Assembly: GCF_000526215.1 (NCBI RefSeq)
Contig: NZ_JAFQ01000004.1
Location: forward strand, 7,998,001-8,062,000
DNA: 64,000 nt
Reading direction: 5' to 3'
Origin: Nocardia sp. BMG51109
GTDB taxonomy: Bacteria; Actinomycetota; Actinomycetes; Mycobacteriales; Mycobacteriaceae
The notes below the pieces were generated by a model. That model ran no database searches. It was not told the origin of the DNA and was given only the letters and a program-made list of their open reading frames with translations. This document shows, piece by piece, positions 1 to 6,074 of the stretch (within the stretch, counting starts at the first letter, position 1; each line of letters begins with the position of its first letter). Both the position numbers and the translations under genes were made by a program.

Positions 1-613
1 TACGCTCGGTGGGCAGGCGCCCCAGTTCGGTGTGCGGGTCCAGGCCGCGGTTACACGCATCGGCATAGACGTTGGCGATGTCGATCAGCAGGTACACGCC
101 GGTGCGTTCGACGAGTTCGGCCAGGAACTCCGCCTCGGTGTAGCACCGCTCGGGCCAGTCGAACAGTGCGGCGATGTTCTCCACCGCGAGGGGAACGTCC
201 AGACCTGCTCGAGTCCGGGTTATGTTGCGCACCAGTACATCCAGGGCCTCGCGGGTGCGTGGCACCGGCAGCAGATGCCCCGCCTCGACGCCCTCGGCGC
301 GGACGAACGCGATGTGCTCGCTGACCAGCGGCGCGCGCAGCGTGCGAGCACAGGCGGCCAGGTGCGCGACCCGGCCGCCGTCGACCGGGTCGGTACCGCC
401 CAGCGACAGCGAGATACCGTGGGGCACCACCGGAACGCCGCGGTCCCGCAACCGCCGCAACTCGTCGGGTACGCTTACCGAACTCCCTTGGGGCGACAGC
501 GATTCGGCGATCACCTCGCAGAACCCCAGCCCGTCGAGCGCATCGATCAGTCCGCAGATCTCGGGCCGCCAGCCGAGTCCCATCGCACCGTCGGACAGCC
601 GGCGCTCATCCAC
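1..613 (-). CDS. DUF692 (MNIO) family protein, C-terminus beyond window edge
   Basis: Partial gene: about 204 codons are present and the C-terminus runs off the left edge. The reading frame gives the typical DUF692 opening (GLGWRPEI, then EVIAESL, VVPHGISLSLGG, HLVSEH-like SEHIAFVRAEG, LAVENIAALF and LIDIANVYADACNRGLDP). DUF692 proteins are TIM-barrel, multinuclear non-heme iron oxidases (MNIO); characterised members such as MbnB and TglH modify cysteines of ribosomal peptides. The His, Glu and Asp clusters expected for metal binding (SEH, VEN, DIANVY) are visible. The start is taken as GTG at 613, which overlaps the upstream gene by 8 bp; ATG at 583 is an alternative. The overlap implies translational coupling with the membrane protein. 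The exact substrate is unknown. Confidence 0.85.
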   Translation of the reverse strand, partial: MDERRLSDGAMGLGWRPEICGLIDALDGLGFCEVIAESLSPQGSSVSVPDELRRLRDRGVPVVPHGISLSLGGTDPVDGGRVAHLAACARTLRAPLVSEHIAFVRAEGVEAGHLLPVPRTREALDVLVRNITRTRAGLDVPLAVENIAALFDWPERCYTEAEFLAELVERTGVYLLIDIANVYADACNRGLDPHTELGRLPTER

Positions 614-1487
614 CGCATCCGCCGCCGTCACCACCACCGCCGCCGGAATCGCCTCCCCCGGAGCCGCCGGAGGAGGTAGACACGCTGAACCCGAGCATCT
701 GGGTCGTGGCGACGAGCGCCGGATCTATCGACCGCACCGCCGTGACACCGAACAGCGCCACGGCCAGGGCCACACTGGCCGGTCCGTAGGATCCGAACGA
801 CGGATGATTTTTCGGATCCAGGTATCCGTGCCGGTCGCGATCTCCGTTCAGCGCTGCCCGCCCGCGTGCGGTGACGGCGGGCGCCTTCGAAAGCAGCAGG
901 CCGACTATCACCAGAACGAAGAGAACGAATACCAGGAATCCGATCGGCTTGCCTCCGCGAGATCCGTCGAATGCGCGCAGCACCCCCACGATCACGACGA
1001 GCCACACCGGAACAGCGGTGCGCCGCACCTTCTTCCGCAACCCGGAGTCCGGTAGATAGCCTCGGTCGAGCAGCCAATTGTGTTGTGCCGCCAGGGCATT
1101 CCGGATACCGAAGCGACGGCGGGCGACCGGACCGGACAGCGAATCATGCAGCATGCAGGCGAACCGGTCGAAGGCGGGCGGCTGTTCCGCGGGACTCCGC
1201 GGCCGGATCGGCGTACCGGCGGAATCGATGAGACCGTGACCGCGCAGATAGGCCAGCCCGGTCAGCACGGTGCGCGGATTGCCGCTCAGGGCAGCGAGTT
1301 CGGTAGGGCTGAGCCGATCGGGAACTGTCTCGTCCTGATCCTTCAGCACCCGCCACCGCAGCACGGATCCGACGATCACCGCCACCACGCCGAGCGGGAT
1401 GTACAGCAGGAGAAACTCCGGACCGGACAGACCCCAAGTGTCGCCGGCCGACGGCAGGGCAGCCGTCCGGCTCAGAGCGTGGAGCAT
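606..1487 (-). CDS. TIGR04222-type membrane protein with Gly-rich, single-Cys tail
   Basis: 293 aa. One hydrophobic segment lies near the N-terminus (EFLLLYIPLGVVAVIVG, residues about 26-45). Two or three more lie at about 165-210 and 238-255. The C-terminus is a run of glycine with Ser and Asp ending in GGGCGG, so a lone cysteine sits three residues from the end. This architecture matches what I recall of the TIGR04222 family, whose members often sit beside DUF692 genes. The start ATG has AAGGTG about 8 nt upstream. The downstream DUF692 gene begins inside the end of this gene. Function is not established; a membrane-tethered substrate or partner of the MNIO enzyme is inference. Confidence 0.75.
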   Translation of the reverse strand: MLHALSRTAALPSAGDTWGLSGPEFLLLYIPLGVVAVIVGSVLRWRVLKDQDETVPDRLSPTELAALSGNPRTVLTGLAYLRGHGLIDSAGTPIRPRSPAEQPPAFDRFACMLHDSLSGPVARRRFGIRNALAAQHNWLLDRGYLPDSGLRKKVRRTAVPVWLVVIVGVLRAFDGSRGGKPIGFLVFVLFVLVIVGLLLSKAPAVTARGRAALNGDRDRHGYLDPKNHPSFGSYGPASVALAVALFGVTAVRSIDPALVATTQMLGFSVSTSSGGSGGGDSGGGGGDGGGCGG

Positions 1488-2770: not shown

Positions 2771-4192
2771 TTACCTCGCACCGCGCGGGATCTCCGCACC
2801 CACCCTGGCCCAGCGACCCGACAGCGCCCGGACGCTCACTGCAACTGTACGCAGCACGATGAACAGGGACAGGCCGGTCCAGATTCCGGCGATGCCCCAA
2901 TCGAAGGCCAGCGACAGCCAGATGACCGGCAGGAAGCCGATCAGCGCCGCGCCCATGGTGGTGTTGCGCAGGTAGATCGCGTCGCCCGCACCGAGCAGTA
3001 CACCGTCGAGCGCGAACACCACGCCGGCGATCGGGATGATGGCGACGAAGAACCACCAGATGACCTCGGTGCGATCGATGACCTGCGGATCGGTGGTGAA
3101 CAGCGCCGGCACCACCGCATAGCCCGCGGCGAAGCAGGCCGCCAGCGCGATCGCGAACAGCAGCGACCAGACCGTGACCCGCCGGGCCAGCCGCTCGGCT
3201 CCGGGCACATTCCCGGCGCCGAGCGCCGCACCCGTCAGCGTCTGCGCCGCGATGGCCAGCGAATCCAGCGTCAGTGTCAGGAAATTCCACAGCTGCAGCA
3301 CCAGTTGGTGCGCGGCCACCGAGGCCGCGCCGAACCGCGACGCCACCGCACCGGCCGATACGAAACACGCCTGGAAGGCCAGGCTGCGCACGATCAGATC
3401 CCGCCCCAGCACCAGCTGCGCCCGCATGATCGCCGGCTGCGGAGCCAGCGAGACCCGCTCGGAGCGCTCCGGCACGAACAGGCATTCCCGCACCAGCGCA
3501 CCGAGGAACAGCACCGCCGCGACGGCCTGCCCGATCACATTGGCGATGGCCGACCCCTCCAGTTCCAGCCGCGGCGCGCCGAGCAGCCCGTGCACGAGAA
3601 TCGGGCACAGGACGGCCGAAATACCCAGTCCCACAACCACATACGCGAGCGGCCGCCGGGTCTGCTGCACCCCGCGCAACCACCCGTTCCCGGCCATCGT
3701 CAGCAGAATCAGCGGCACACCGATCAACGCGATCCGCAACCAGCCCAGCGCCGCGTCGACGATGTCGGCGCCGCCGGCGATCAGCTCGGTGATCGGGCGC
3801 GCGAGGACTTCCAGCACGACGAGGATCGCCAGCCCGATCCCGATCGCCGTCCAGCTCGCCTGCACCCCCTCCTGAACCGCCCCCGGCCGATCCCCCGACC
3901 CGAACCGCCGTGCCGACCGCGCGGTGGTGCCATAGGTCAGAAACGTCAACTGCGTACTGACCTGCCCGAGAATCAACCCACCCACCGCCAGCCCGGCGAG
4001 CGCCAACGCCCCCAGCCGCCCCACGACAGCCATATCCCATAGCAGGTAGATCGGTTCGGCGACAAGCACACCCAGCGTCGGGACGGCGATCCCCAGGATC
4101 CTCCGCGGCCCGGCGTCGGCCGAATCCTCCGTGTCTGCGGGCGCGGCAACAACCGCGCCCTCCGCTTCCTCACGCCCCTGCCGCTCCGTCAT
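2771..4192 (-). CDS. dinF: MATE family efflux transporter, DinF type
   Basis: 473 aa integral membrane protein with about twelve hydrophobic segments in two similar halves, typical of MATE drug/sodium or proton antiporters. Family features seen include IAVPTLGVLVAEPIYLLWD near the N-terminus, VGRLG, and the internally repeated pattern around AFQACFVSAGAVASRFG in the second half. The ATG at 4192 is preferred over an upstream ATG at 4225; a purine-rich GGAGGAAGGGGG precedes it. In mycobacteria dinF follows the rbfA/DHH genes directly. Here a toxin-antitoxin module on the opposite strand separates it from the DHH gene. Substrate unknown. Confidence 0.88.
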   Translation of the reverse strand: MTERQGREEAEGAVVAAPADTEDSADAGPRRILGIAVPTLGVLVAEPIYLLWDMAVVGRLGALALAGLAVGGLILGQVSTQLTFLTYGTTARSARRFGSGDRPGAVQEGVQASWTAIGIGLAILVVLEVLARPITELIAGGADIVDAALGWLRIALIGVPLILLTMAGNGWLRGVQQTRRPLAYVVVGLGISAVLCPILVHGLLGAPRLELEGSAIANVIGQAVAAVLFLGALVRECLFVPERSERVSLAPQPAIMRAQLVLGRDLIVRSLAFQACFVSAGAVASRFGAASVAAHQLVLQLWNFLTLTLDSLAIAAQTLTGAALGAGNVPGAERLARRVTVWSLLFAIALAACFAAGYAVVPALFTTDPQVIDRTEVIWWFFVAIIPIAGVVFALDGVLLGAGDAIYLRNTTMGAALIGFLPVIWLSLAFDWGIAGIWTGLSLFIVLRTVAVSVRALSGRWARVGAEIPRGAR

Positions 4193-4310
4193 CGCGGCAC
4201 ACCCCCTTCCTCCCCCGGCCCGCACCCGATCACCCGACCTCCCGCTCGTCTCATCGCGAGATCACCATCGCACAGCCCACCGACACGAGGGGATCAACCC
4301 AACAGCATCG

Positions 4311-4350
4311 GTAGCACCTAGTAGCACCGTGCAGCACCACAGCGTATTCT
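4311..4350 (+). promoter_or_regulatory. triple 10-bp repeat and -10 box of the phd/vapC module
   Basis: GTAGCACC at 4311-4318 and 4321-4328 and GCAGCACC at 4331-4338 are spaced exactly 10 bp, about one helical turn. They are followed by TATTCT at 4345-4350. The antitoxin ATG at 4357 is 6 nt after TATTCT, which suggests a leaderless transcript starting at or near the A of the ATG. The repeats would then cover the -35 region, a plausible autoregulatory operator for the antitoxin. The repeats and spacing are seen directly; the operator role is inference. Confidence 0.5.
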
Positions 4351-4356
4351 CGACCC

Positions 4357-4626
4357 ATGAGCGCCGAACCCGAGATCACCCAAAGAGACCTGCGCAATCG
4401 GTCCAAAGAGATCATGGATGCTGTTCAGGAAGGACAGTCGTTCACGGTTACCCGCGACGGCCATCGCATTGCCGAACTGATACCGATCCGGCGGCGTCGA
4501 CGTTTCGTCAGTCGCGAAGAATTCGCTGCCATGTCGCGCAACGCTCCGGCCATCGATCCTGATGCCTTTCGCGCCGATCAGGATGCTGCATTCGATCACG
4601 AGGTGACCAGCCCGTATGAACGATGA
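4357..4626 (+). CDS. Phd/YefM-type antitoxin
   Basis: 89 aa. The N-terminal half (ITQRDLRNRSKEIMDAV, then GQSFTVTRDGHRIAELIPI) is the Phd/YefM DNA-binding and dimerisation fold: a helix pair followed by a strand ending in AELIPI. The acidic and flexible C-terminal half (from about residue 50) would wrap around and neutralise the toxin. The gene overlaps the following PIN toxin gene by 11 bp, the usual arrangement for co-translated toxin-antitoxin pairs. There is no Shine-Dalgarno sequence; the start fits a leaderless mRNA. The module stands between dinF and the DHH gene on the opposite strand and looks inserted into an otherwise conserved operon. Confidence 0.88.
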   Translation: MSAEPEITQRDLRNRSKEIMDAVQEGQSFTVTRDGHRIAELIPIRRRRRFVSREEFAAMSRNAPAIDPDAFRADQDAAFDHEVTSPYER

Positions 4627-5065
4627 CAAGGCCGATGCAGGCTTGCTCGATACGAACATCCTGATCCTCCGCGGACATCTGGACCCCGCCGAACTACCGG
4701 CACAGATGGCTATCACTGCGGTCACCCTCGCCGAGTTGTCCTCCGGGCCACACGAAGTGCGCAGCAACAACGAGCAAAACGACTACGACGAACACGAGGA
4801 GCGTGCCCGCAGAATGGATGTCCTGCAGCGCGCAGAAAGCGAGTTCGACCCGATACCCTTCGATGCCGAGGCTGCGCGCACGTATGGACGAATCGCGGCA
4901 GCAACCGTCGCAGCCGGTCGAAAACCACGGCGCCGTATCGCGGACCTGATGATCGCCGCCGTCGCGGTCGCCGAGAACCTCCCGCTGTACACGACCAATC
5001 CGGACGACTATCGCGGACTCGACAAGTTGCTCACCGTCGTACCGATTGCCCGCCCGGAAATCTGA
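4616..5065 (+). CDS. vapC: VapC-type PIN-domain ribonuclease toxin
   Basis: 149 aa PIN-domain protein. The acidic metal-binding residues expected of VapC are present: Asp in LLDTNILI (near residue 12), Glu in TLAELSSG, Asp in RRRIADLMIAA and the final Asp in TTNPDDY. VapC toxins cut tRNA or rRNA and are blocked by a cognate antitoxin, here the overlapping Phd-type protein. A Phd antitoxin with a PIN toxin is a common pairing. The charged stretch around residues 48-70 (NNEQNDYDEHEERARR) is a larger insertion than in many VapC proteins. The gene ends 5 bp before the convergent DHH gene. Confidence 0.88.
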   Translation: MNDDKADAGLLDTNILILRGHLDPAELPAQMAITAVTLAELSSGPHEVRSNNEQNDYDEHEERARRMDVLQRAESEFDPIPFDAEAARTYGRIAAATVAAGRKPRRRIADLMIAAVAVAENLPLYTTNPDDYRGLDKLLTVVPIARPEI

Positions 5066-5069
5066 CCGA

Positions 5070-6074
5070 CTATCCCCGCAGCTCCGCCAGGAGCGCTGCC
5101 ACCAATTCCTCCGGTGTGCCCTCGGTCGTGTAGCCGGCCGCGTAACGGTGTCCGCCGCCGCCCAACCGCGTGGCCACCCGGGCCACGTCGACGCCGTCGT
5201 CCAGGCCGACGCCGGTGTCGCGGGAGCGTAGCGAGACCGTCCACTGGCCCGGCGTGGTGCGTGACTCCTTGAACACCGCGGCGATCGCGGCCTCGGAGGT
5301 GGTGCGGACGACGTCGATGACGCTCTCCACCTCCTCCGAGCGCAGGCCGGTGATGTCGTCGCGGTGCACGAACGCGTACACCAGCCCGGCACCGGCCGCC
5401 GCGTCGGGTTCCAGGTGGGCCGAGCCCAGCACCCGCGACAGCATCGGCAGCCAGCCGAACGGGTGGGTGTCCATGAGCGTCCGGGTGATGCCCGCACCGT
5501 CTATTCCGGTCGACAGCAAACGTTCGGCAAGCCGATGGGTGCCCGGTCCGGCCCACCGGAAGCAGCCGGTGTCGGTGACCAGGCCCGCGAACAGGCAATG
5601 CGCCACCGAACGATCGATCGGCTCATCCCAGGCGTCGAATACCCGGGCCAGCAGGCTGGTCGTCGACTCGGCCGTCTCGTCTATCACGTTCACGGTGCCG
5701 AAGCGGGTATTGGAGCGATGGTGGTCGAGCACCAGAGTCGTTGCGGCACCGGCGATCCGATCGGCCAACCGGCCGAGTCGTCCGGCGCTGCCGCAGTCGA
5801 CGGCGACCAGCAGATCCACCTCCGCCGGCACCTGGCCGGGCGGCACCAGGAACTCCACCCCCGGCAGCGACCGCATCGAGGCCGGCAGCTCGGCCGGCTC
5901 GGCGAACGACACCCGGACCGGAATCCCGCGCCGGTGCAGCACCTGCGCCAGTGCCAGCCCGCTGCCGACGGTGTCGGCATCGGGCTGCACGTGACACAGC
6001 ACCGTCGCCGATCGCGCGGCGTCCAGAACCTCGACGGCCGCGGCGAGATCCGCCGTCGGCGTAACAGCTGTCAT
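5070..6074 (-). CDS. nrnA: DHH/DHHA1 phosphoesterase (NrnA-like)
   Basis: 334 aa. The N-terminal DHH domain has HVQPDADTVGSGLAL, VDCGSAGRLG and the DHH motif itself in LVLDHHRSNTRFG. The C-terminal DHHA1 domain carries GGGGHRYAAGYT, the conserved glycine-rich nucleotide-binding loop. Family members are nano-RNases / pAp phosphatases; the M. tuberculosis counterpart (Rv2837c, CnpB) also hydrolyses cyclic di-AMP. It is read leftward after rbfA, the same order as in mycobacteria. A 102-bp gap separates it from rbfA. It probably terminates the translation-factor operon here because dinF is cut off by the toxin-antitoxin module. Confidence 0.9.
   Translation of the reverse strand: MTAVTPTADLAAAVEVLDAARSATVLCHVQPDADTVGSGLALAQVLHRRGIPVRVSFAEPAELPASMRSLPGVEFLVPPGQVPAEVDLLVAVDCGSAGRLGRLADRIAGAATTLVLDHHRSNTRFGTVNVIDETAESTTSLLARVFDAWDEPIDRSVAHCLFAGLVTDTGCFRWAGPGTHRLAERLLSTGIDGAGITRTLMDTHPFGWLPMLSRVLGSAHLEPDAAAGAGLVYAFVHRDDITGLRSEEVESVIDVVRTTSEAAIAAVFKESRTTPGQWTVSLRSRDTGVGLDDGVDVARVATRLGGGGHRYAAGYTTEGTPEELVAALLAELRG

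Follow-up and report, generated by a model that had tools for sequence, protein, structure and literature searches.

Architecture of the locus

The DNA analysed here, called the window throughout, is a stretch of 64,000 nucleotides from Nocardia sp. BMG51109 (contig NZ_JAFQ01000004.1), and our subject is a pair of genes at its left end: one for a TIGR04222-family membrane protein with a glycine-rich tail and one, overlapping it, for an MNIO (DUF692) enzyme. We propose that the enzyme would oxidise the single cysteine of this tail. The features of the pair are:

606..1487, minus strand: TIGR04222-family membrane protein, putative MNIO substrate, 293 amino acids, ATG at 1487 (profile match, predicted structure)
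609..695, minus strand: Ser/Gly-rich C-terminal tail, residues 265-293, ending GGGCGG (sequence; disordered in the AlphaFold2 model)
615..617, minus strand: TGC codon of Cys291, the sole tail cysteine, third from the C terminus, likely modification site (sequence and homologues)
606..613, minus strand: 8-bp overlap of the 3' end of the membrane protein gene with a GTG start of the MNIO gene, possibly giving translational coupling (start codon inferred)
1..613, minus strand: N-terminal half of the MNIO (DUF692, PF05114) gene, which continues left of the window (profile match, full open reading frame)

The 293-residue protein matches the NCBIfam model TIGR04222 (near_uncomplex) over residues 28-251 with an E-value of 2.5e-33 and a score of 115.6 bits, where the cut-off is 43, and no Pfam model matches it at E 1. 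A sequence-only reading of this DNA had placed a TIGR04222 membrane protein beside a DUF692 enzyme, and both assignments were confirmed, the enzyme matching PF05114 with an E-value of 1.4e-77 (262.6 and 261 bits against a curated cut-off of 25). The membrane protein has four hydrophobic segments, with hydropathy peaks at residues 25-43, 157-175, 182-200, and 236-254, and a Lys/Arg-rich domain at residues 50-158. The AlphaFold2 model has a mean pLDDT of 85.7, with residues 273-290 falling below 50. The protein closes with GGGDGGGCGG ahead of a stop codon at 606-608, which bears out the earlier claim of a lone cysteine closing a glycine run; Cys291 is alone in the tail, and the protein has just one other cysteine, at residue 183 when counting back from the C terminus.

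The 8-bp overlap claimed for the two genes holds if the MNIO gene starts at the GTG at 611-613, and among 53 gene pairs of the genus, 14 have their nearest in-frame MNIO start at this -8 distance; the window start is inferred, however, and other GTG codons, up to position 637, would lengthen the overlap. The enzyme gene is present where it had been placed, but only about 204 of its residues are inside the window, with the rest left of the window edge. The full open reading frame has 444 codons from its most upstream start, or about 436 from the GTG at 613, and ends at position 7997303 of the contig (G000:C4), 698 bp left of the window. Extending the sequence to the left, as had been suggested, thus completed the enzyme and uncovered a helical domain fused to it, but no further gene conserved beside the cassette came to light.

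The window MNIO shares the TIM-barrel fold of known MNIO structures. Its putative iron ligands, in P0121 numbering, are H71, H106, E151, D184, N187, H215, D228, H230, and E256, all invariant in alignment A2; those from E151 onward were aligned to TglH, whereas H71 and H106 were assigned from the alignment with 3bww and from their numbering. The corresponding set reported for TglH is H71, H107, E151, D184, N187, H216, D229, H231, and E258 (PMC10880893). The window DUF692 protein is probably an iron enzyme that oxidises peptide cysteine. Among NCBIfam models, it scores best with the bufferin maturase (BufB), reaching 180.8 bits against a cut-off of 310.

The helical domain begins after about residue 325 of the MNIO, and its predicted helices fall within the stretch 331-430 of P0121. 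A homologue of this partner domain is present in all 54 TIGR04222 loci of the genus sample described below, as its own gene directly after the MNIO gene in 52 and fused to the enzyme in two, namely the window genome and Nocardia stercoris (G400/L109). Such fusions were found in Streptomyces-like loci too. By place and helicity, the fused domain fits the PME-type 2 partners described for related clusters (PMC12452194). As to structural similarity with DUF2063/TglI-type partners, a profile search of PDB sequences brought up neither TglI nor 3dee, and the fold matches, a separate list, barely extend into this part of the protein.

Other gene arrangements were noted among the homologues. At one locus (L148, G465:C1), the MNIO gene is split across two frames, although the preceding gene encodes an intact CGG-tailed membrane protein. 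In Nocardia carnea 760185008 (L093, G408:C239, and L312), the membrane protein, its CGG-type tail, and the MNIO share one frame of 597 codons, while a relative close to it (G050) has a stop after CGG; the single frame is either a natural fusion or an assembly error.

The tail cysteine and the enzyme in Nocardia

To place the pair in context, 118 Nocardia genomes were surveyed; the p-values given here and below ignore relatedness. An MNIO is encoded in 56 of these genomes and a TIGR04222 protein above the cut-off in 54, and all 54 TIGR04222 genomes have an MNIO (Fisher p 9.6e-32). Of 63 TIGR04222 proteins above the cut-off, 57 are MNIO-adjacent, and 56 of those 57 end in CGG, including that of G408, from a fused frame (G408:C239) trimmed to its junction before tips were counted; the remaining one ends in CGSS. 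When the last 20 residues were shuffled, CGG ends arose in 4.8 of the 57 on average and in 12 at most. Among the six proteins encoded away from an MNIO, two end in CGG, one ends in CGGGG, and three have no cysteine at the tip. Two genomes (G398 and G408) hold both kinds: a CGG-tailed homologue adjacent to the MNIO, and a second copy elsewhere whose glycine tail ends GGDGGE and has no cysteine. These second homologues are internal controls for the tail cysteine tracking the enzyme.

Tail lengths and cysteine numbers vary widely among the homologues. Beside an MNIO, the tail carries one to eight cysteines at variable spacing, and the last of them is nearly fixed as the third residue from the end of the tail. 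The window protein has the only clean single-cysteine tail of the genus sample; another protein with one apparent tail cysteine (L120) was left out of this count because of unread bases in its frame.

A set of 80 named loci was also read, fetched with patterns of the window's MNIO subtype and drawn from genomes partly shared with the genus sample. A TIGR04222 protein is encoded in 73 of them; 72 of these proteins have a Gly/Cys tail and the remaining one is continuous with the MNIO in a single fusion, and a CGG-ending protein is encoded in 67. The family is absent from seven loci, three of which have the MNIO at the start of a contig.

Several loci depart from the common layout. In five (L335, L337, L341, L344, and L345; Rhodococcus, Smaragdicoccus, and Tsukamurella), two to three tandem TIGR04222 genes, most with Gly/Cys tails, precede one MNIO gene. 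In four Rhodococcus loci (L325, L329, L330, and L333), the frame preceding the MNIO gene resembles an AsnC-type regulator by eye. Four genus MNIOs (L113, L123, L125, and L147) have neither a TIGR04222 gene nor a partner gene in the fetched DNA and fall outside the main group of the tree. Upstream of genus TIGR04222 genes, an ATCGAC dyad with an 11-base spacing occurs in eight of 54 regions, compared with at most two for any dyad in base shuffles, and it may only reflect relatedness. Elsewhere in the window, positions 4357-5065 of the plus strand hold two small overlapping open reading frames that resemble, by eye, a Phd-type antitoxin and a PIN-domain toxin.

Tail cysteines across the class

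In a wider sample of 296 genomes of the class, an MNIO was found in 66 and a TIGR04222 protein above the cut-off in 74, and 92 proteins from outside the genus were read. A Gly/Ser tail was defined by at least 10 such residues among the last 20. Less than 5 kb from an MNIO, 34 proteins have such a tail with a cysteine, one has the tail without a cysteine (G655), and 16 are tail-less. With the MNIO elsewhere in the genome, the corresponding numbers are 8, 2, and 9, and in genomes with no MNIO they are 1, 10, and 10. Thus 10 of the 11 Gly/Ser-tailed proteins from MNIO-less genomes have no cysteine in their last 20 residues; one genome (G577) was moved out of the MNIO-less group because a contig end cuts the start of its MNIO gene. 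Glycine tails occur with and without MNIO, whereas their cysteines go with the enzyme (43 with both cysteine and MNIO, 1 with cysteine only, 3 with MNIO only, and 10 with neither; p 6.9e-8).

A cruder count per genome, which scored any cysteine in the last 10 residues across 71 genomes outside the genus, pointed the same way less sharply (p 1.1e-4), with 38 genomes having cysteine and MNIO, 5 cysteine only, 12 MNIO only, and 16 neither. The five with cysteine only are G577 and four (G657, G682, G670, and G673) whose proteins have ends other than glycine tails; under the Gly/Ser definition, G657 counts as a tail with cysteine owing to its serines, and the other three have no tail.

The 16 tail-less neighbours of MNIO genes comprise 15 proteins from one Streptomyces-like genus (g7) and a duplicate in G307. 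In g7, four of the proteins accompany a cysteine-tailed copy at their locus, and 11 are the only TIGR04222 protein found near their MNIO. At another locus (L278, G601:C2), a plus-strand frame at 3934-5142 overlaps the end of the MNIO gene, stops before the partner gene, and has a Gly/Cys tail ending CGGGGCGGS; it has no TIGR04222 profile match and is possibly another precursor type.

A candidate modification cassette

Taken together, these data make it likely that the locus is a compact protein-modification cassette in which the MNIO and its fused partner domain oxidise the tail cysteine of the TIGR04222 protein. This cysteine is very probably the substrate of the enzyme, which is the part we hold with most confidence, on the strength of the comparisons above. 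The iron enzyme, aided by the partner domain fused to its C terminus, would oxidise the cysteine within the terminal Gly-Cys-Gly-Gly of the protein encoded upstream. The overlapping genes would place newly made enzyme at the ribosome as the tail emerges, and its modification would take place in the cytosol, either ahead of membrane passage or in place of it. Only about 40 residues separate the last hydrophobic segment from the C terminus, so that the greater part of the tail does not emerge from the ribosome until termination; this short distance, together with the gene overlap, would favour modification before translocation, and we lean modestly toward modification preceding export. In that order of events, a cytosolic enzyme and an outside tail would be compatible.

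The modified tail would stay tethered to the membrane as a small ligand site, and we judge a position outside the cell reasonably probable. Averaged over 52 sequences, loop 1 carries 15.1 Lys/Arg residues, loop 3 carries 6.8, and the tail 0.4, so that, provided the last segment crosses the membrane, the positive-inside rule would put the tail outside. By analogy with bufferins, the ligand would most plausibly be a soft metal such as copper; a metal-binding function falls just short of an even chance in our estimate, and a thiooxazole- or oxazolone-type product is a tentative suggestion.

Several observations weigh against this reading. The most direct are homologues that lack the cysteine and keep the DUF692 neighbour, which the sequence-only reading had named as evidence against itself and which do exist: 11 Streptomyces-like loci keep an MNIO beside a TIGR04222 protein without a glycine tail or cysteine, having lost the whole tail, while G655 has an adjacent MNIO and a glycine tail free of cysteine. 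The sequence-only interpretation is partly supported: that the tail cysteine tracks the enzyme is upheld by the co-occurrence in all 54 genus genomes, the CGG ends, and the paired copies of G398 and G408, and the loci just named are exceptions to it. The MNIOs of the 11 loci fall in one clade of 14 tips with no cysteine-tailed locus inside (support 0.99 in a 177-tip tree). That tree omitted two of the nine cysteine-tailed g7 loci (G352 and G689); with both and five other sequences added (184 tips, 146 distinct sequences), the clade held with a support of 0.93. This fits a single event in which the tail was lost and the enzyme retained, perhaps to act on a different substrate; we looked for one at these loci and found none. 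The four Rhodococcus loci mentioned above have an MNIO and a partner, with no TIGR04222 gene in the fetched DNA. In MNIO-bearing genomes of the class, 8 of 19 proteins encoded away from the enzyme carry a tail cysteine, four of them being of another paralogue type with one cysteine outside a CGG end, and two (G705 and G689) have a glycine tail without cysteine. These last two indicate that the presence of an MNIO alone does not predict the cysteine, and paralogue specificity fits them. A comparison of neighbour families at 58 loci brought up no additional conserved gene that would indicate a metal role; the most frequent extra family reaches 21 loci, and the window locus is in none of the 14 listed. 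The last helix is weakly hydrophobic, with a 19-residue mean of 1.68 in a family that averages 1.54 and goes down to 0.96, and the model shows it as broken, so the tail may be cytosolic. Finally, the case for modification is one of association throughout.

Three other explanations were considered. The MNIO might process the tail cysteine on a membrane-bound carrier from which a protease frees a small product, the platform then being reused as in pearlin biosynthesis. TglH does act on the C-terminal cysteine of a scaffold peptide (PMC12452194, PMC10880893), and the near-terminal position of the cysteine is almost fixed here; against this, the cysteine is encoded and then followed by Gly-Gly, unlike that of TglA-Cys, the neighbour families just described offer no extra conserved gene, and tails with up to eight cysteines resemble a displayed chain of sites rather than one carrier site. 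We regard such a scaffold as unlikely. It is improbable, too, that the tail cysteine is used unmodified, for metal binding, a disulphide, or redox chemistry, with the MNIO substrate encoded elsewhere. The loci whose MNIO has no cysteine-tailed neighbour (the Streptomyces-like clade, G655, and the four from Rhodococcus) would suit that idea, but the tip cysteine follows the enzyme between paralogues in G398 and G408 and between MNIO-bearing and MNIO-less genomes, and a disulphide within the tail is impossible where there is a single cysteine.

Drift of glycine codons in a low-complexity tail (GGC to TGC), leaving the cysteine a functionless by-product, can appeal to the single base that separates Gly and Cys codons and to the wide variation in tail lengths and cysteine numbers. 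The excess of CGG ends over the shuffled tails, the synonymous variation at the tail tip, and the Cys-free tails of 10 of 11 proteins from MNIO-less genomes make it very hard to sustain. We consider the window genes a real and probably functional pair of substrate and enzyme.

Should the tail cysteine be modified, MNIO enzymes would act on full-size membrane proteins, beyond short peptides, and the membranes of many actinomycetes would carry an unknown group. A more speculative extension is that a C-terminal CGG serves as a portable tag in actinomycetes, read and oxidised by the MNIO and its partner on full-size membrane proteins, so that a metal or redox group would stay attached for good at the cell surface; this would be modification of a membrane protein and not a secreted peptide natural product, with the window species holding a minimal form whose chemistry is unlike that of TglH. 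The window locus is a convenient test case because one cysteine means one possible site for a mass shift and because the enzyme carries its own partner domain.

Comparison with known systems

The pairing of substrate and enzyme is already known in kind, and the window copy is a minimal, readily testable member. TIGR04222-MNIO clusters of Actinomycetota were described in 2025 in Microb Genom (PMC12452194), where, according to the main text, TIGR04222 proteins account for 40% of the more than 1,000 signal-less proteins with Cys whose genes precede one for an MNIO. Subsets of them were proposed there as possible MNIO substrates via Cys-bearing Ser/Gly tails, and the tails were placed outside the cell. 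More than a quarter of these TIGR04222 proteins lack a C-proximal cysteine, one third of TIGR04222 genomes have no MNIO, and PME-type 2 partners were predicted in at least 10% of the clusters. The window locus resembles these clusters in having a TIGR04222 protein beside an MNIO, a Ser/Gly tail with cysteine, and a short partner. The family traits of several transmembrane segments and an unstructured Ser/Gly C-terminal region with cysteine are found, as predictions, in the window protein, which differs in having one tail cysteine and not a Cys-rich segment, and in the fusion of its partner domain to the MNIO.

The main text of that paper makes no mention of CGG, the overlap, a C-terminal extension, or SCO6045. 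Its passages on fusions name an MNIO-nitroreductase fusion and MovX with an extra winged-helix domain, and no MNIO-PME fusion was found in them. Relative to the main text, our analysis adds the co-variation of the cysteine with the MNIO, the nearly fixed terminal CGG, and the paralogue controls, as well as a single-cysteine member, the fused partner, and the clade with a lost tail. No experiment on TIGR04222-MNIO proteins was found in the literature searched.

Bufferins (Buf1/Buf2) and oxazolins (Buf_EGKCG) are alike in that an MNIO, assisted by a helper protein, acts on cysteines. Their precursors, as described in PMC12452194, have Sec signal peptides and DUF2282, Buf2, or EGKCG motifs, whereas the window precursor is a 293-residue integral membrane protein of the TIGR04222 family; together with the maturase score below its cut-off, this sets the locus apart from bufferins. 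In pearlins, where TglHI acts on TglA-Cys, the cysteine is the last residue and is added post-translationally (PMC10880893), whereas Cys291 is encoded and precedes Gly-Gly. Moreover, the key Asn73 of TglH (PMC10880893) would correspond by numbering to Ile73 in the window MNIO, and the chemistry therefore probably differs from that of TglH.
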